This document shows positions 7,302 through 18,967 of a DNA stretch of 48,308 nucleotides, piece by piece. This stretch comes from Alphaproteobacteria bacterium HGW-Alphaproteobacteria-11. GTDB lineage: Bacteria; Pseudomonadota; Alphaproteobacteria; Parvibaculales; Parvibaculaceae. Position numbers and translations under genes: made by a program. How positions within the stretch are numbered: the first letter of the stretch is position 1; the number at the start of each line of letters is the position of its first letter. The stretch spans positions 1 to 48,308 of the forward strand of contig PHEO01000004.1 in assembly GCA_002841195.1 (NCBI GenBank), given 5' to 3'. The notes beneath the pieces are model-generated. The model did not search any database and was not told where the DNA came from. It saw nothing but the letters and a program-made list of their open reading frames with translations.

Positions 7302-8720
7302 ATGTCGTCCGACGTCAAACACGCCCGATTCGAAGGCCGCATCGTCATTGTCGGGTTCGGAAGCATCGGGCAGGGCGTGCTGCCGCTGCTGCTCCGGCAT
7401 ATCGATGTCGCGCCGTCGCAAATCTCGATCCTGACCGCCGACGAGGGCGGGCGCGAGGTGGCCGAAAGCCACGGCGTCGGCTTTGCCGTGACGCCGCTGC
7501 GCCGGGGCAACTATCTGTCGGTGCTCGACCCGCTGCTGGCGGAAGGCGACTTCCTGATCAATCTGTCGGTCGATGTGTCGAGCATCGCGCTCATCGAGTT
7601 CTGCCGCGCGAAGGGCGCGCTTTATCTCGACACCTGCATCGAACCCTGGATCGGTCAGTACACGGATGCATCGCAACCGCCGTCGCAACGTTCCAATTAT
7701 GCATTGCGCGAGAAGGCGATGGCGCTGAAGGCGAAGCATGAGGGCGGGCCGACCGCGATCCTGACGCATGGCGCCAATCCGGGCCTTGTGTCGCATTTCG
7801 TGAAACAGGCGCTGCTCGATATCGCGGCGGACACGAAGACGGCGGTCGCGAAACCGCAGACGCGCGAGGACTGGGCGCGGCTTTCGGCGCGGCTCGGCGT
7901 CAAGGTCATTCATATCGCCGAACGGGATACGCAAGTGTCGCCGACACCCAAGCGCATCGGCGAATTCGTCAACACCTGGTCGGTCGACGGTTTCGTCAGC
8001 GAAGGCTGCCAGCCGGCCGAACTTGGCTGGGGCACGCATGAACGGCATTTTCCCGATGACGGCCACCGGCATGCGAGCGGCCCCGCCTGCGCGATCTATC
8101 TGACGCGGCCGGGTGCCTCGACGCGGGTTAGAAGCTGGACACCGAACGAGGGGCCCTATCACGGCTTTCTCATTACGCATGGCGAGGCGATTTCGCTCGC
8201 CGACTATTTCACCGTGCAGCAGAACGGCGAAGCGCAGTACCGGCCGACCGTTCACTATGCCTATCACCCTTGCGACGATGCCGTTTTGTCGGTGCATGAA
8301 TTTGCCGGCAAGAACTGGCAACCGCAAAAGTCGAAACGACTGATGATGGACGAGATCAGCGCCGGCATGGACGAGCTTGGCGTGCTGCTGATGGGTCATG
8401 CGCGCGGCGCCTATTGGTACGGCTCGCAGCTTTCGATCGGGGAGGCGCGCCGTCTCGCGCCGCACAACAATGCGACCAGCCTGCAGGTGACGGTGGCGGT
8501 GCTGGCGGGCGTCGTCTGGGCGATCGAGAATCCGGGGCGCTGGATCGTCGAGCCGGAGGAAATGGATTTCAAGCGCATTCTCGAGATTTGCCGGCCTTAC
8601 CTCGGAAAAATGGCCGGCGCCTATAGCGACTGGACGCCGCTGCTCGACCGGGGCCTTCTTTTCGAGGAAGAACTCGATGAGGCCGATCCCTGGCAATTCC
8701 GGAATTTCCGCGTCGTCTGA
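7302..8720 (+). CDS. hss: Homospermidine synthase
   Basis: IVIVGFGSIGQGVLPLLLRH…, long homology-recognisable protein with NAD-binding Rossmann start; ATG at 7302. Confidence 0.92.
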   Translation: MSSDVKHARFEGRIVIVGFGSIGQGVLPLLLRHIDVAPSQISILTADEGGREVAESHGVGFAVTPLRRGNYLSVLDPLLAEGDFLINLSVDVSSIALIEFCRAKGALYLDTCIEPWIGQYTDASQPPSQRSNYALREKAMALKAKHEGGPTAILTHGANPGLVSHFVKQALLDIAADTKTAVAKPQTREDWARLSARLGVKVIHIAERDTQVSPTPKRIGEFVNTWSVDGFVSEGCQPAELGWGTHERHFPDDGHRHASGPACAIYLTRPGASTRVRSWTPNEGPYHGFLITHGEAISLADYFTVQQNGEAQYRPTVHYAYHPCDDAVLSVHEFAGKNWQPQKSKRLMMDEISAGMDELGVLLMGHARGAYWYGSQLSIGEARRLAPHNNATSLQVTVAVLAGVVWAIENPGRWIVEPEEMDFKRILEICRPYLGKMAGAYSDWTPLLDRGLLFEEELDEADPWQFRNFRVV

Positions 8721-8732
8721 TGGCCGCGAAAC

Positions 8733-8764
8733 GGAAAAGACCGCCCCTTTTGCGAGGGACGGCC
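8733..8764 (-). terminator. Rho-independent terminator for the YRG-protein gene
   Basis: On minus strand GGCCGTCCCT-cgcaa-AAGGGGCGGTC followed by TTTT (pairing includes G-U). Confidence 0.65.
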
Positions 8765-8840
8765 TTGACCTGCGGAACCGCGCGCCGGACGCCTGTCGGG
8801 GACGGCAACCCTCCAACATTTGGCAGGGCGGCGGTTTCCG

Positions 8841-9011
8841 TCAGTCGTGCTGCGGGATGCCCCGGTAGCGGAGACCCACATGGCTCGCCTTCGGCTTGTC
8901 GTGAGGCGTCGCGCGATAGCTGGCGCCGCGATAGCGCAGGGTCGTGCTGCCTGTCGCGCCGGCCGGTTTTTCGCCGTGATGGGCGGCGCCCCGATAGGTG
9001 AGATCGGTCAT
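8841..9011 (-). CDS. 56-aa YRG-motif protein (DUF4278-like), MTDLTYRGAAHHGEKPAGATGSTTLRYRGASYRATPHDKPKASHVGLRYRGIPQHD
   Basis: Translated by hand; perfect AGGAGG Shine-Dalgarno upstream; three YRG motifs; flanked by promoter and terminator; absent from the supplied ORF track (length cutoff). Confidence 0.85.
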   Translation of the reverse strand: MTDLTYRGAAHHGEKPAGATGSTTLRYRGASYRATPHDKPKASHVGLRYRGIPQHD

Positions 9012-9051
9012 GGAAGCCTCCTGCTGGCCTTTCAGTGTCCCTCGTTCCTCA

Positions 9052-9107
9052 TCAATATGAGTAAGATGTGTAAGTTTGTCAATATGCTTAAAACAAACAA
9101 TTACACA
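9052..9107. promoter_or_regulatory. Candidate operator region: direct repeat TCAATATGnnTAA (9052, 9079) and imperfect inverted repeat TGTGTAAGTTTGT / ACAAACAATTACACA
   Basis: AT-rich island in a GC-rich window between two divergent genes. Confidence 0.5.
9054..9082 (-). promoter_or_regulatory. Sigma70-type promoter for the YRG gene: TTGACA-17 bp-CATATT
   Basis: Minus-strand reading TTGACAAACTTACACATCTTACTCATATT; places a start about 36 nt upstream of the ATG. Confidence 0.7.
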
Positions 9108-9227
9108 TTCCTTAGACAGGATGCCGGGCGCCTGCTACAAAAAGGCGGAACAGCTTGAGTTTTCTTGTGTTTTCGGCGCCGCTGGCGGGACTGCCGGGCC
9201 GGTGCCGACCGGAGTACAAAGAAGAAT

Positions 9228-9725
9228 ATGGAAAAACTCGATCAGAGAATCCAGCTCGTCGCCTCGACCGAGTTCAACAATCTCGTCGATCGCTGGCGCC
9301 GGGAACAGGCCGACCTGCCCTCCCGCTCGGAGGCCATCCGCCGGCTTGTCCTTCACGGTCTCGAATATGAAAAGAGCTTCCCGATGCGCATGATCACGGC
9401 GATTATCCGGCCCCATAAATACGAGGAATTGCGCGACGCGCTGATCGCGCTCGGCATCGAGGGGATCACGGTGACCCAGGTTTCGGGCTTCGGCCGGCAG
9501 CGCGGCCAGACCGAAATCTACCGCGGCGCCGAATACAGCGTCGCCGAAGTACCGAAAGTCCGTATCGACGTCGCCGTTTCGGCGGCGCTGGTCGAGAAGG
9601 CGGTGCGCGAAATCGAGCGGGCGGCCAATACCGGCAAGATCGGCGACGGCAAGATTTTCGTGCAGCCGCTCGAACAGGTCGTGCGCATCCGCACCGGCGA
9701 GACCAACGAGACGGCGCTGGGCTGA
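9228..9725 (+). CDS. RHH-P-II fusion: N-terminal ribbon-helix-helix-like domain plus complete P-II (GlnB/GlnK) domain
   Basis: MEKLDQRIQLVASTEFNNLVDRWRREQADLPSRSEAIRRLVLHGLEYEKSFP then MRMITAIIRPHKYEELRDALIALGIEGITVTQVSGFGRQRGQTEIYRGAEYSV…TGKIGDGKIFVQPLEQVVRIRTGE; P-II T-loop and B-loop signatures intact. Confidence 0.88.
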   Translation: MEKLDQRIQLVASTEFNNLVDRWRREQADLPSRSEAIRRLVLHGLEYEKSFPMRMITAIIRPHKYEELRDALIALGIEGITVTQVSGFGRQRGQTEIYRGAEYSVAEVPKVRIDVAVSAALVEKAVREIERAANTGKIGDGKIFVQPLEQVVRIRTGETNETALG

Positions 9726-9847
9726 TCCATCCGGCCGTTTTCCGCAGAAACCGCGGTTTCCGGCCTCTGCCCGTTTACTTCCGGGCAAGGTGGCGGGGCG
9801 TATGCTGAGGGCCGGTCTCTCCCTCGGGCAGGACGCTGAAAACCGCA

Positions 9848-10750
9848 ATGCACGGCCAGAAACATATGCTGTCGGCGCGGCGCAAGTCGCTGCTGGCGGA
9901 TTATTCGACGGACCTCGGACAGCTGATGTCGCGAAGCCGGTCGGAAGCTGCGTTGCGGGCGGCCAAGATCGAGTCCGATGCCGCGAGCCGCACCAAATCC
10001 GAATTCCTCGCCAATATGAGCCATGAGCTCCGGACGCCGCTCAATGCGATCATCGGCTTTTCGGAATTCATCCAGCACATTGCCGCGAGCGGCAAGCCGT
10101 CGGAAAAGACCGGCGAATATGCCGAACACATCGCCGGCGCCGGGCGCCACCTGCTCAATATCATTTCCGACATTCTCGATATTTCGAAAATCGAGAGCGG
10201 CACCTTCACGCTGTCGACGGAGATGTACGGGCTGCGCGAGCTGATTGACGCCTGCACGGTGCTGATCGAGCCGCGCGTGCGCGAAAAAAACCAGATACTC
10301 GAGATCAAGGCCGACCGCGATCTGCCGGAAGTGCCGGTCGATGTCCGCCGCATCAAGCAGGTGCTGATCAATCTTCTGTCGAACGCCCACAAGTTCACGC
10401 CCGAAGGCGGCCGCATCGTGCTGGTGGCGACGCGCGCGCCGGATGGCGGCGCGACGGTCGCGGTCGCCGATACCGGCATCGGCATGTCGGACGAACAGCT
10501 CGCCTATGCGATGACGCCCTTCGGCCAGGTGCAGTCGAGCTATGCGCGTGGCCATGAGGGCACCGGGCTCGGATTGCCGATCGCGGCGGCGCTGGCGCGG
10601 CTTCACGGCGGCGAATTCCATGTTCACAGCGAGCCCGGCAAGGGCACGACGGTTTTCTTCACCTTGCCGCCGCAAGCACCGGACCATGCCGAAGCGCCGG
10701 AATCGGGTTCGTCCGCATCCAGTTCCTCCACACAAGGCCTGTTGCAATGA
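9848..10750 (+). CDS. Soluble histidine kinase (HisKA + HATPase_c) lacking a recognisable sensor domain
   Basis: KSEFLANMSHELRTPLNAIIGFSE H-box, QVLINLLSNAHKFTPEGG N-box, ADTGIGM, GTGLGLPI. Confidence 0.93.
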   Translation: MHGQKHMLSARRKSLLADYSTDLGQLMSRSRSEAALRAAKIESDAASRTKSEFLANMSHELRTPLNAIIGFSEFIQHIAASGKPSEKTGEYAEHIAGAGRHLLNIISDILDISKIESGTFTLSTEMYGLRELIDACTVLIEPRVREKNQILEIKADRDLPEVPVDVRRIKQVLINLLSNAHKFTPEGGRIVLVATRAPDGGATVAVADTGIGMSDEQLAYAMTPFGQVQSSYARGHEGTGLGLPIAAALARLHGGEFHVHSEPGKGTTVFFTLPPQAPDHAEAPESGSSASSSSTQGLLQ

Positions 10751-13263: not shown

Positions 13264-13602
13264 CAGAGGGGGCGGGGCAAGCCAGACTCTCACCAAGCAA
13301 CTGATTTGATTCGTTTTCAGTGGAAATGCTGCGCTGCATATAATCAGTGTGCGCCGCAATATATTTTAACACTCTCCCGTATCTCCATTACAGCCGTGTC
13401 ATAATTGCAATAGTGCGCGGCAATGTTGCGCATCGGCGCGCGCCAGGCCCCCGGCAGTCTTGACTCAAACTTTCAATGACTGTCGTCTAGCAGGTGAGGG
13501 ATGCTGACTGGCCGGGGGGACCAGTCGGAATACGTTCCGCACCACCTCCCGATCCAGCCCGCAAAGTTAGTGAAGCCATCGAGGATCGAGGAGGATCGCT
13601 CC

Positions 13603-15639
13603 ATGAGAAAAGGTATTGCCCAGAAGCTACTTTTGGGCGGCGCGACGGGTGCAGCCATGCTGCTGACCGTCGGAACGGCGCAGGCCATCGAATTCAAGTT
13701 CGGGGAAATGTCGCTGGTCATCGACAACACCGCCTCGATCGGCGTTGGTATCCGCACATCGAAGCAAAATTGTCAGAACGTGAATTCGGCAAATGGCGGC
13801 TGCGGTGCGCCCGGTCCAATTCCCGGTACGCCTATCGATTTCGGCGTCAACGACGACGACGGCAATATCAACACCGATCAGTGGGATATCTTTTCGACGC
13901 CGGTCAAGCTGACCACCGACTTCGAAATGAAGTGGCGGAACTACGGCGCGTTTGTCCGTACCAAGCTGTTCTACGATCACTGGGTGTATGAAGAGATCGG
14001 TACGCGCAACAACCGCTTCGGTTCCCGCCCGATCACCGACGCCTTGCGCGGCGATCAGGCCCGGCGCTTCGGCGGTCGCGGCGCCGACGTGCTCGACGCC
14101 TTCGTCTACGGCAATTTCGACGTGGCCGGCAATCCGGTCACGCTGCGCGCCGGCAAGCAGGTCATCAACTTTGGTGAAAGCCTGTTCATTCCGGGCGGCA
14201 TCAGCTCCTACCTGCCGGTCGACCTCTCGGCGCTTCGTACGCCGGGTTCGGAACTCAAGGAAGCCTTCCTGCCGGTGCCGGCGCTTTACGGCTCGATCGG
14301 CTTGCCCGGCAACATACAGGTCGAGGCCTTCTGGCAGTTCGGCTGGGAACGCACCCGCCTCGACGCTTGCGGCACCTTCTTCTCCGGCACCGACGCCGCT
14401 TGCGAAGGCGGCCAGTACGTCATGAACGCCGGCGACTTCCCGACCGGCGCCATCGTCATCCCCCGTCAGGCTTCCGACGAGGGCGACGACACCGGCACGT
14501 TCGGCATTGCTCTCAAGCATTATGCCGAGTGGCTCGGTCAAGGTACCGATCTCGGCTTCTACTATGTCAACCAGAGCCTGACGGCTCCGGTCGGCACCTT
14601 TACCCTGAGCAACCTGGCTGCCGCGGCTTACCCCGTAGGTCACCCGTTCGCGGCCCTGAACGGTCTGTTCCCGGCTTCGGGCGGCAGCGCCGCCGCCTTC
14701 TGTACGTTGGGTGGCGCTCCCGGCGCGGCCTGTCTGGCTCCGAACTTCTTCGGTCCTGCTACGCCGTCGCTCTTCCAAGCGGCCTTCATCGGCGCCGCCA
14801 ACACCAAGAACTACCTGACGCAGTACGTCAATGATGTCGACTCCTTCGGCTTCAGCTTCAACACCTCGATCCCGCTGCTGGGCGGTTCGGCCTTCTCGGG
14901 CGAAATCAACTACACGCCCGACATGCCGTTCGCGCTGAACGACGTCGATATCAACTGTCACGATCTGAACGCCGTCGACTTCGGTGCGATTATCGGTCTC
15001 CCCGGTTTCGCCCACTGCCGTCCCGGCGCCGTCGCTCCCACCGGTCCCGGTGCGACGATCCAGGGCTACGATTTCCGGGAATCGATCACCGGTCAGATCG
15101 GCACCATCAGCACGCTGAGCGGTTCGCAGCCGCTGGTCGGCATGCTCGGTGGCGATATCATGGTCCTGGTGGCCAATGCCGGCTTCCAGTACATCGCGGA
15201 CCTCGATTCGGCGACCAACCGGCTGGCGGTCCCGCGTGCTGCGTCGGCCAATCCGAACCCGCTCACCAACCAGGTGCTCGCCACCGCCGGTTGCGCCGGT
15301 GTTGTTCCTTTCGCCCCGACGCAGTGTACGCCCCAATATGCGGACAACTTCTCCTGGGGTTACCGCCTGTTGACGTCGGTCGACTACAACAACGCGCTTG
15401 GAACGGCGTGGACCTTGTCGCCCAGCGTTGCCTGGTCGCATGACGTCAGCGGTTACTCGGCCGGTCCGGTGGGCCCGGGCTTCGTTCAGGGCAAGAAAGT
15501 CGTGTCGCTCGGTCTGACGGCAAACCTGCGGAGCGTCTGGCGTGCCAACGTCCAGTACACGCACAACATGGGCAATGAATTCCGTAACTTTTCGAAGGAC
15601 AAGGACTTCATGACCATGACGGTTTCCTACGCCTTCTGA
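13603..15639 (+). CDS. DUF1302-family outer-membrane protein
   Basis: Signal peptide MRKGIAQKLLLGGATGAAMLLTVGTAQA, IEFKFGEMSLVIDNTASIGVGIRT, C-terminal beta-barrel end MTVSYAF; SD GAGGAGG upstream. Confidence 0.85.
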   Translation: MRKGIAQKLLLGGATGAAMLLTVGTAQAIEFKFGEMSLVIDNTASIGVGIRTSKQNCQNVNSANGGCGAPGPIPGTPIDFGVNDDDGNINTDQWDIFSTPVKLTTDFEMKWRNYGAFVRTKLFYDHWVYEEIGTRNNRFGSRPITDALRGDQARRFGGRGADVLDAFVYGNFDVAGNPVTLRAGKQVINFGESLFIPGGISSYLPVDLSALRTPGSELKEAFLPVPALYGSIGLPGNIQVEAFWQFGWERTRLDACGTFFSGTDAACEGGQYVMNAGDFPTGAIVIPRQASDEGDDTGTFGIALKHYAEWLGQGTDLGFYYVNQSLTAPVGTFTLSNLAAAAYPVGHPFAALNGLFPASGGSAAAFCTLGGAPGAACLAPNFFGPATPSLFQAAFIGAANTKNYLTQYVNDVDSFGFSFNTSIPLLGGSAFSGEINYTPDMPFALNDVDINCHDLNAVDFGAIIGLPGFAHCRPGAVAPTGPGATIQGYDFRESITGQIGTISTLSGSQPLVGMLGGDIMVLVANAGFQYIADLDSATNRLAVPRAASANPNPLTNQVLATAGCAGVVPFAPTQCTPQYADNFSWGYRLLTSVDYNNALGTAWTLSPSVAWSHDVSGYSAGPVGPGFVQGKKVVSLGLTANLRSVWRANVQYTHNMGNEFRNFSKDKDFMTMTVSYAF

Positions 15640-15664
15640 TCTTCGGATCGCACAACGAAAACGA

Positions 15665-15698
15665 AACCCGGCGGTGGCGACACCGCCGGGTTTTTTCT
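15665..15698 (+). terminator. Rho-independent terminator
   Basis: AACCCGGCGGTG-gcga-CACCGCCGGGTTTTTTC. Confidence 0.92.
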
Positions 15699-15734
15699 TT
15701 TGAGGGTGGATGGTGGCTTCTCCCCCCTTTTTTG

Positions 15735-15882
15735 TTCTTTTCCGGGCTTGACCCGGCAATCCAGGAGCCGCGTAGCGGCGTCTCTCTTCGCGAGAATTCA
15801 CTTCTCCGAGGCGACAAATTTTTTGAAGAGCGACGCTGCCTTCGGCAGCTTCTGGGCCCCTGGATCAAGTCCGGGGGAGACG
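15735..15882 (+). repeat. Intergenic palindromic repeat family I, copy B
   Basis: CCGGGCTTGACCCGGCAATCCAGGAG…GGCAGCTTCTGGGCCCCTGGATCAAGTCCGGGGGAGAC. Confidence 0.85.
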
Positions 15883-16231
15883 CGTGTGGGGAAGGTCGCA
15901 CAAACCTCCCGTGTTGCGCCGCACAAAAGACGGCGCCGCCCGCGAGAATCGTCCGTAGACGGATCGACAGGCTTTTCGCCGCCGCGCGGTCCGCCGCGCC
16001 GCACATTAAAAAGATTTAATGCAACCACGGCGAAAAGGCCGTGAAAACGGGCTGAAAAGCGGCCCGGAAGACACACAATCGCCGGCGCGGCGATTTGCGC
16101 GGGCCAAGCAATTTGGTATCATTCCGCGAGAGTAAGGCGGGGAAACCGGCCTCGGTGCGCAGTCGCAATACACCTTTTCAAGCGCCTGATCATCGAAAGC
16201 CCGATAAGAAATCCAGTGGAGGGAACGTATA

Positions 16232-17587
16232 ATGAAAAGGACGACCATGCTGGTGTCCGCAATTGCGATCAGCGCACTCGCGACGAGCGCGCTGGCCAAG
16301 GTGCCGGATGCCCAAGTGAACCGCCTGGGTCAGGATCTGACCCCGATGGGTTCGGAAAAGGCCGGCGATGGCGACATCCCCGCATGGACCGGCGGCCTGC
16401 CGACCGTGCCGAGCAATGTCACCTACACGCCCGGTCAGAAGCTGCAGAACCCGTTCGCCAGCGACCCGATCAAATACACGGTCACAGGCGCGAATGCCGG
16501 TCAGTACGACGACATCCTGACCGAGGGTTACAAGGCCCTGCTGAAGGCCTATCCGACCTACAAGATGGACGTCTATGAAACGCGCCGCACCTGCGCGTTC
16601 CCGGACCGCTTCTACGAAGCCAACAAGCGCAACGCCGCGGTTGGCGAACTTGTCGGCGGCGGCGCCGGCATCAGCCAGGCGATTTTCGGTTCGCCGTTCC
16701 CGATCCCGAACAGCGCGCTCGAGATCATCTGGAACCACACGCTGCGTTATCGCTCGTTCAAGGTGGTGCGTCAGTTCGCGGCGGCGCCTGTGACGCGCGG
16801 CGGCGACTACACGTTGCAGATCGTCCAGGACGAAGCCATCCTGCAGTGGTCGGATCCTTCGGCGGGCAAGGCCGAGGATCTCGAGAACATCTCGATCTAC
16901 TACATCGCCAACACGATCGCCCCGGCCCGCGCCGCCGGCAGCGTGATCCTGGTGTATGAAGCCCTGAACGCGCAGGCTCAGCCGCGTCAGGCCTGGCAGT
17001 ACAGCCCCGGTACGCGCCGCGTGCGCCGCGCGCCGAACATCGCCTACGACAACCCCGGCACGAACTCGGACGGTCTGTCGACCTCCGACTCGTTCGACGG
17101 TTACAACGGCGCGCCGGACCGCTACGACTGGACCGTGCTCGGCAAGACCAAGAAGCTCGTTTCGGCCAATGCCTATGACGGTGAATCGGTACCCTACAGC
17201 GACTACCTGAAACCGTCGCATATAAACCAGGATCGGGTTCGCTATGAGCTGCGTCGCGTCTGGGAAGTCGAAGCCAAGCTTCGCGCCGATACGCGTCACG
17301 TCTATTCCCGCCGCGTCTATGCGAACGAGGAAGACGCCTACCAGATGTCGACCGTGGCGCTTTACGACGGCCGCGGCCAGCTCTGGCGCGTGCAGGAAAT
17401 GCACCAGATCCAGCGCTACAACGTGCCGCTCTGCGGTTCGGCGGGCGAGATCGTCTATGACCTGCAGGCCGGCCGTTATCTGGCGCTCGCCCTGCAGAAC
17501 GAAGAGCCGCCGGTGAACTACTTCGCCGACGAAATCGACAAGTCGCGTTACACGCCGAACTCGATCCGTCAGCTCGGCGTCCGCTAA
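16232..17587 (+). CDS. DUF1329 domain-containing protein
   Basis: Signal peptide; VNRLGQDLTPMGSEKAGDGDIPAWTGGL, PGTRRVRRAPNIAYDNPG, DRYDWTVLGKTKKLV. Confidence 0.92.
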   Translation: MKRTTMLVSAIAISALATSALAKVPDAQVNRLGQDLTPMGSEKAGDGDIPAWTGGLPTVPSNVTYTPGQKLQNPFASDPIKYTVTGANAGQYDDILTEGYKALLKAYPTYKMDVYETRRTCAFPDRFYEANKRNAAVGELVGGGAGISQAIFGSPFPIPNSALEIIWNHTLRYRSFKVVRQFAAAPVTRGGDYTLQIVQDEAILQWSDPSAGKAEDLENISIYYIANTIAPARAAGSVILVYEALNAQAQPRQAWQYSPGTRRVRRAPNIAYDNPGTNSDGLSTSDSFDGYNGAPDRYDWTVLGKTKKLVSANAYDGESVPYSDYLKPSHINQDRVRYELRRVWEVEAKLRADTRHVYSRRVYANEEDAYQMSTVALYDGRGQLWRVQEMHQIQRYNVPLCGSAGEIVYDLQAGRYLALALQNEEPPVNYFADEIDKSRYTPNSIRQLGVR

Positions 17588-17648: not shown

Positions 17649-17890
17649 GGCGGCGCCCCTTCTCCCGCGATCCGGCCGCAGCCGCCTTAACCCTGTTCGA
17701 AAGGGTTCGCCGCACAGGTTCACGAGGCCCAAGACCGCGCTCGAAAAATGCGCTATAAGGAAAAAAACGCTATAAAAAGACAACCAAACAGGAGGCTCGT
17801 CCGGGGGGAGACCGGTGGATTTCGGCGGATTGCCGGAGCCCCAAGTCTGCCTGCGGCGACCCAAACGCCCGAGTGCAGGAGCCCAAGGTA

Positions 17891-18967
17891 ATGTCACCGT
17901 CGATTATCGAGACCCTTTCCAGCGGCTTGCCGCGCCTTCGCCGCGCCGCCGCCGTGTTTTTCGCACTGGCTTTCGCCGCCGTCGCGCCCGCCGCCGCGCA
18001 GGACATGGAGGGCGGCAGCAAACCGTCCTATGCGATGCAATCGGCGCTGGCGCCAGAATCCCTGCTGCTCGATGCGACCTATGCCAATGGCCGGCTGGTT
18101 GCCGTTGGCGAATATGGACATGTCGTCTATTCCGACGATCGCGGCGTCACCTGGACGCAAGCCGCGTCCGTGCCGACACAGGCGACGCTGACCGGCGTCA
18201 CCTTCGTCGATGCGAAACTCGGCTTCGCTGTCGGCCACGATGCGACGATCATCCGCACACGCGATGGCGGCGAGAACTGGGATCTCGTCTATCACGATGC
18301 CGAATCCGAAATGGCATTCATGGCCGTCTATTTCGAAAATGAAGAGCGCGGATTCGCGCTCGGCGCCTTCGCCTTCATGGTCGAGACACAGGATGGCGGC
18401 GAGCCCGACAGTTGGGAAGAACGTTCGCTCAGCGATGGCTTGCTCGACGACTATCACCTCAACAAGCTTTTCTCGGACAAGGACGGCGATCTCTACATCG
18501 CCGCCGAGTTCGGCATCGTCTATCACTCCAGCGACAAGGGCCGCACCTTCACCAGCATCCAGACGCAGTATGAAGGTTCGTTCTGGGGCGGCTTCGGCAT
18601 GAGCGACGGTTCGGTCATGGTGTTCGGCATGCGCGGCAACGCTTTCCGTTCCTGGGACAAGGGTCAGAGCTGGACGAAAGTCGACACGGGCACCGACAAG
18701 TCGATTGCCGGCGGCGTTCAGCTTGGCGGCGGCAAGATCATCCTGGTCGGCCTACAAGGCTATGTCGGCTACAGCGACGACAACGGGAATAGCTTCGTCG
18801 AGGTCACACGCGCCGATCGCCTCGGCTATGCGGCGGTTTCGGACGGACCGGACGGTCAGATCGTCGTCTTCGGTGAACCCGGCGCCAAGCTGATGCCGGA
18901 CGATCCCGAGAAGGCCCGCGAAGCCGTTGGCGCGCGGATCACCGCCGCCACGGAAGGCGGCAGCTAG
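17891..18967 (+). CDS. Ycf48/BNR-like beta-propeller exported protein
   Basis: Signal peptide then LVAVGEYGHVVYSDDRGVTWTQA, GFAVGHDATIIRTRDGGENW, YVGYSDDNGNSF repeats. Confidence 0.85.
   Translation: MSPSIIETLSSGLPRLRRAAAVFFALAFAAVAPAAAQDMEGGSKPSYAMQSALAPESLLLDATYANGRLVAVGEYGHVVYSDDRGVTWTQAASVPTQATLTGVTFVDAKLGFAVGHDATIIRTRDGGENWDLVYHDAESEMAFMAVYFENEERGFALGAFAFMVETQDGGEPDSWEERSLSDGLLDDYHLNKLFSDKDGDLYIAAEFGIVYHSSDKGRTFTSIQTQYEGSFWGGFGMSDGSVMVFGMRGNAFRSWDKGQSWTKVDTGTDKSIAGGVQLGGGKIILVGLQGYVGYSDDNGNSFVEVTRADRLGYAAVSDGPDGQIVVFGEPGAKLMPDDPEKAREAVGARITAATEGGS

Follow-up and report, generated by a model that had tools for sequence, protein, structure and literature searches.

A ribbon-helix-helix-like domain fused to P-II in two alphaproteobacterial orders: a probable one-component regulator of a neighbouring DUF4278 gene

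To our knowledge, P-II proteins, which are among the most widespread of signalling proteins, are understood to act only via protein contacts, and a P-II gene whose reading frame opens with a domain resembling the ribbon-helix-helix (RHH) DNA readers raises the question of whether such a protein may itself address DNA. The gene considered here lies in a 48,308-nucleotide stretch of DNA (contig PHEO01000004.1, positions 1 to 48,308; hereafter the window) from a genome belonging to the genus Parvibaculum. The initial annotation had proposed a single frame joining an extension of about 52 residues to a complete P-II protein, and this is borne out by translation and by Pfam; the features of the locus are collected in Table 1. 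It had also known of no described RHH-P-II fusion, and none was found in the open-access literature (subscription papers lying outside that search).

Table 1. Features of the fusion gene, its neighbour and the DNA between them, in window positions.
Feature	Position	Strand	Description or basis
RHH-P-II fusion gene	9228..9725	+	165 aa; translation, Pfam, conservation in both orders, alignment
RHH-like domain (residues 1-52)	9228..9383	+	Pfam, alignment, AlphaFold, profile relatives
Canonical P-II domain (residues 53-165)	9384..9722	+	Pfam, nearest solved relatives, alignment
Possible second half-site TTACACAT (inverted ATGTGTAA)	9101..9108	-	Less well conserved; altered in L010 and L019/L020
Predicted DUF4278 promoter	9054..9082	-	TTGACA, 17 nt, CATATT; 10/12 matches
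Proposed operator, tandem 9-bp repeats ATGAGTAAG ATGTGTAAG	9057..9074	+	Inside the DUF4278 promoter
DUF4278 protein gene, proposed regulated partner	8844..9011	-	56 aa; Pfam, co-occurrence, YRG motifs
Terminator-like hairpin after the DUF4278 gene	8737..8766	-	12 pairs; weak, 1.2 such sites expected in shuffles

The C-terminal part is matched by Pfam P-II over residues 53-158 (E=8e-28, 97.2 bits against a cut-off of 25), and its nearest solved relatives are GlnK, GlnZ and GlnB, the closest being A. brasilense GlnZ (3mhy). The T-loop reads EIYRGAEY, and residue 103, the equivalent of Tyr51, is invariant in 13 of 13 aligned fusions together with the equivalents of Q39, K58, G87, K90, R101 and R103, where the match to E. 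coli P-II numbering is by our own alignment. The complete fold, the YRGAEY T-loop and the effector-binding residues are shared with GlnB, GlnK and GlnZ (PF00543); however, the known members are stand-alone trimers that work by protein contacts, whereas the fusion clade bears an RHH-like domain at its N-terminus and a signature of its own, RPHKY. Every sequence feature tested identifies the protein as a P-II, but not as a stand-alone one, a conserved and selected domain of 52 residues preceding P-II residue 1. In NikR, an N-terminal RHH reader is followed by a C-terminal ferredoxin-like (ACT-like) nickel sensor, so that on paper the design is the same, an RHH reader and then a ferredoxin-like ligand sensor; the two differ in that NikR has an ACT tetramer core for nickel, whereas the fusion has a P-II domain (in its family a trimer, for ATP, ADP and 2-oxoglutarate), and the sensors are unrelated in sequence. 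No ACT-like nickel-binding domain of the NikR type was found at the C-terminus of the fusion, which is P-II by Pfam. The genome of the window carries two ordinary P-II genes at other loci. It also has a gene for an SbtA-type membrane protein followed by one for a 107-aa P-II-like protein (L004:494-1794; G000:C266), probably an SbtA/SbtB bicarbonate-transport pair as assigned by eye and by the P-II match. As noted initially, neither glnA nor amtB is present, at least in those other genes of the window that were scanned; DUF1302 and DUF1329 genes occupy 13501-17587 and are followed by a YCF48-like gene (17873-18967).

Of 27 Parvibaculum genomes, 17 carry the fusion, whereas the 13 other genomes of the family all lack it. 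It recurs in a second, distant order of alphaproteobacteria, where 14 of 18 genomes have it and the carriers fall in three genera with genomes of 0.9-1.4 Mb. The idea that it is limited to one assembly was thus rejected, and the extension that had been postulated from a single sequence is real in its orthologues. In a phylogenetic tree the P-II parts of all fusions form one clade (support 98/95) separate from the ordinary P-II proteins that these genomes also encode, which implies that the fusion arose once; the length of the protein is nearly unchanged in all copies. One copy (G020) is split over two contigs, and the L021 entry in the fusion clade is that split copy. A query with the N-terminal part over 399 genomes of the phylum returned no fusion beyond the two known groups, and among 385 genomes of the class a profile search recovered fusions from the two known families only. 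N-terminal extensions in tblastn matches outside both orders (e.g. L089, L112) were discarded as an unrelated upstream reading frame. Viral contigs gave P-II matches, none of which covers the RHH part; phages gave no RHH match, and on plasmids the RHH domain was found only as a stand-alone protein or in other fusions.

Conservation among the 17 Parvibaculum carriers sets in at the ATG of 9228 in every case, with divergent DNA ahead of this codon. Shine-Dalgarno energies in the genus are -4 to -9 kcal/mol at 9228 versus -2 to -4 kcal/mol at the internal ATG of 9384, a weak site that is ordinary for coding sequence. Because the site at 9228 is the stronger one, the short form from 9384 is, on sequence evidence only, not the main product in Parvibaculum; a start at 9384 alone was rejected for this genus on the same comparison and on the conservation of the RHH part, and the full-length product of the initial annotation stands. 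At 0.02-0.17, dN/dS of the RHH codons equals or falls below that of the P-II domain in most pairs, which marks the extension as translated and as held under strong purifying selection. The second-order genus g219 is different: Met53 follows a strong internal Shine-Dalgarno sequence (AGAAGGGGG, -10.8 kcal/mol) and none is present at the first start, which makes a second, free P-II product possible in that genus. In L176 and L182 a TATAAT-like box ends ~6 bases before the fusion start codon, again without a Shine-Dalgarno sequence, so that in g219 the transcript of the fusion may lack a leader.

The kinship of residues 1-52 with RHH proteins, also proposed initially, holds in part. The window sequence itself gives a weak match to Pfam RHH_1 (E 0.012-0.02, 15.9 bits), under the curated cut-off of 20.5, but a profile built on the N-terminal domain picks up about twenty small stand-alone proteins of alphaproteobacteria, three of which exceed that cut-off, and AlphaFold modelling of the domain alone places two helices at the RHH positions (14-25 and 33-50; mean pLDDT 87), the DNA-reading strand forming only in the dimer. 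The predicted elements are a DNA-reading strand, DQRIQLVAS (residues 5-13), helices at ~14-26 and ~33-45, and a linker to P-II of about six residues (~46-52) that is constant in length and variable in sequence. Comparison of the domain profile with NikR, CopG and Arc by hhalign gave P=3e-4 at a probability of only 39%, a likeness that is suggestive. A structure (fold) search with the domain returned no significant PDB match, the top matches being RHH or RHH-like folds at E>1, and a PDB search using the RHH profile returned no match; AlphaFold modelled the full-length protein poorly (pLDDT 63), and that model is uninformative on assembly. The motifs DQRIQLVAS, WRR and P-S-x-S-E-x-IRRLV do not vary among 13 aligned fusions; conservation within the domain is highest in the predicted DNA-reading strand, which is identical across the two orders.

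The helix pair and the signature are shared with RHH_1/CopG (PF01402) and with the small alphaproteobacterial RHH proteins of the form WRR.q.DlPSR.EAiRRLV, which differ in being mostly stand-alone proteins of 60-110 aa, some in a phage or plasmid context and some fused to YfbU-like domains. One of the stand-alone proteins, of 57 aa (L180:8240-8413, in G195), is 60% identical to the N-terminus of the fusion and lies amid tail-like genes; the region is probably a prophage, and the protein is a possible source of the RHH domain. Related RHH domains also stand at the N-terminus of longer proteins, both in G135 (L129/L261) and in plasmid matches annotated as YfbU family (H12-H17), which indicates that this type of RHH has been fused more than once.

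The best evidence for the role of the fusion is its DUF4278 neighbour and the repeat conserved between the two genes. The neighbour, divergent from the fusion at a distance of 216 bp, is matched by Pfam DUF4278 over residues 3-52 (E=8.8e-9, 36.1 bits against a cut-off of 25.3), and every intact copy has exactly three YRG motifs. Among 40 genomes of the order the gene occurs in the same 17 Parvibaculum genomes as the fusion and in none of the 23 others, and it always adjoins the fusion (Fisher p ~1e-7 within the genus, uncorrected for linkage or relatedness, with linkage making the statistics non-independent). Both genes are absent from G032, a close relative nested among the carriers in a HerA-helicase tree, in which window positions 8721-9768 are replaced by ~155 unrelated bp; the flanking match runs to the stop codon of the gene before and picks up again at ~9769. 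By this comparison the two genes were lost together in G032, and the fusion is, as far as gene content indicates, one half of a two-gene module with DUF4278. The histidine kinase at 9848-10750 occurs in at least five module-free genomes and was dropped as a partner for that reason; since it and the HerA-like gene are retained in genomes that lack the module, both lie outside it.

The fusion of the second order is immediately preceded, on its own strand, by small ORFs carrying three YRG motifs; their DUF4278 match is weak (E 6e-5 to 0.6), and most fall under the Pfam cut-off. Three genomes (G211, G087, G426) keep the fusion without an adjacent intact DUF4278 gene or operator, and a fourth (G420) has a remnant only, a short in-frame DUF4278-like sequence, MKELKYRGTKYNDVA, upstream of an intact fusion, the operator being gone (L179). 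Because these genomes retain the fusion without its neighbour or operator, DUF4278 is not its sole job; a further target, or a function of the P-II type, must come in addition. In G306 the DUF4278-like gene is tandemly duplicated upstream of the fusion (L176, ~9000-9400), the second copy having no repeat in its upstream 110 bases. At four loci of this order (L173, L174, L176, L177) a cobalamin riboswitch stands upstream of a divergent gene adjoining the fusion, probably one for a TonB-dependent receptor. DUF4278 proteins with three YRG motifs were also found in a third alphaproteobacterial family, f121 (L220, L221, L222), where the surrounding DNA showed no recognisable P-II or RHH gene.

DUF4278 has a nitrogen-linked history in cyanobacteria, where it makes up the N-terminal moiety of IF17 (gifB), an inactivating factor of glutamine synthetase, and is found in small proteins controlled by glutamine riboswitches and by NtcA (PMC6316151). 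The window protein shares with IF17 the character of a small three-YRG protein, expression of the cyanobacterial one being nitrogen-linked (PMC6316151); it differs in its pairing with an RHH-P-II gene and in that no glutamine riboswitch was found at the DUF4278 gene. Judged from length, a protein of 56 aa in which DUF4278 covers residues 3-52 has no room for an IF7-like inhibitory part. PirA was dropped as a DUF4278 protein, the PirA paper making no mention of the domain.

The DUF4278 promoter is the only promoter-like match in 8700-9860, where 0.2 are expected in shuffles. The intergenic DNA of the carriers is mostly divergent (mean column identity 54%) with the exception of one block at 9066-9082, ATGTGTAAGTTTGTCAA, which has 99% column identity and is preceded by the sister repeat ATGAGTAAG at 9057-9065. 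This 17-mer is found in the divergon of every carrier tested, once per genome, with an extra two-mismatch site in G015; its absence from six non-carrier genomes is partly trivial, the module itself being missing there. When a weight matrix trained on the Parvibaculum repeats alone was run over six second-order loci (~34,000 positions each in five and ~3,900 in L136; the loci are related and not independent trials), the best 9-mer pair at the DUF4278 promoter ranked first in five of the six and third in the remaining one. In L182, three tandem repeats, ATGAGTAAT ATGTATAAT ATGTGTAAG, overlap a TTGAAA-16-TATAAT promoter (11/12) on the DUF4278 strand. The repeat pitch is 9 bp in Parvibaculum versus 18 bp in most second-order loci, and where the intact DUF4278 gene is missing from a second-order locus the repeat is likewise missing at that place. 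By these comparisons the repeat is a recognisable remnant in otherwise unalignable DNA, travelling with the unchanged RHH strand. The possible second half-site (Table 1) directly precedes a weak -35-like element (9112-9118) of the fusion gene.

The fusion is probably a P-II-gated one-component regulator whose RHH domain would bind the repeats, repress DUF4278 locally and probably act on its own gene. The N-terminal RHH domain would bind the tandem 9-bp repeats ATGWGTAAK, which lie over the DUF4278 promoter and upstream of the fusion gene; the C-terminal P-II domain would sense ATP, ADP and 2-oxoglutarate and so gate DNA binding, and uridylylation of the T-loop Tyr might be sensed as well. Repression of DUF4278 through covering of its promoter would be the main action, with autoregulation of the fusion gene a probable addition, and the assembly would reconcile RHH dimers with the P-II trimer, e.g. 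with three RHH dimers linking a pair of P-II trimers. Repression by the ATP/2-oxoglutarate form, with release by the ADP form, is a guess modelled on cyanobacterial gifB, the N-terminal part of which is DUF4278 and which is repressed at high 2-oxoglutarate. The initial annotation had already proposed a one-component RHH-P-II regulator, and the occurrence of the architecture in two orders, its single origin and the adjacent operator-like repeat speak for that proposal, which had however overlooked the divergent DUF4278 partner and the operator. P-II state is likewise turned into transcription by the PII-PipX-NtcA axis of cyanobacteria (PMC6243067), but there an adaptor and a distinct CRP-type factor intervene, whereas here reader and sensor would be one polypeptide.

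It is unlikely that the RHH-like domain is instead an oligomerisation or protein-contact device, the fusion acting as an ordinary P-II and the repeat belonging to another regulator. P-II proteins do normally act via protein contacts (PMC6243067), the Pfam RHH match is weak, and some second-order carriers keep the fusion without the repeat and DUF4278; however, the predicted DNA-reading strand is the very part of the domain that is most conserved and is identical in the two orders, and an unrelated regulator is hard to reconcile with a repeat that occurs once in each carrier genome, is missing from six non-carriers and is shared by both orders along with the fusion. A dual product, in which the RHH-P-II regulator and a free P-II from the residue-53 ATG mix into trimers and so tune the number of RHH domains, would accord with the start sites of g219 and with the invariance of Met53 and Met55 across all fusions; it is decidedly improbable, since Met53 is the normal first residue of P-II and its conservation may be structural inheritance, and since the internal site in Parvibaculum is as weak as is usual for coding sequence. 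Near-constant length, a single origin, spread over two orders and dN/dS of 0.02-0.17 already contradict a chance or decaying read-through fusion, in which a mobile-element RHH antitoxin-like gene became joined to P-II without a selected regulatory role, and this origin is scarcely credible in spite of the 60%-identical stand-alone protein among the tail-like genes of the probable prophage in G195 and the similar domains on plasmids.

The one-component regulator can also be carried further, to a divergon that forms a closed nitrogen-control circuit, and this extension is quite unlikely. An RHH-P-II hexamer of two trimers and three RHH dimers would read 2-oxoglutarate, ATP and ADP and directly repress DUF4278, and DUF4278 would mimic the T-loop tips and compete for AmtB/GlnD-type targets, so that transcription factor and small protein would be sensor and sensor mimic. 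The three YRG(xxY/H) motifs of DUF4278 would imitate the three T-loop tips (Y46-R47-G48-x-x-Y51), a likeness that extends over a short motif only.

If the regulator proposed here is real, a P-II protein that reads DNA itself would constitute a single-gene transcription factor responsive to carbon, nitrogen and energy state, and a metabolite sensor may thus control a gene directly, without partner proteins. It would raise the structural question of how a P-II trimer drives dimeric DNA readers, and the DUF4278 neighbour would offer a handle on a small-protein family that in cyanobacteria is controlled by riboswitches and by NtcA.
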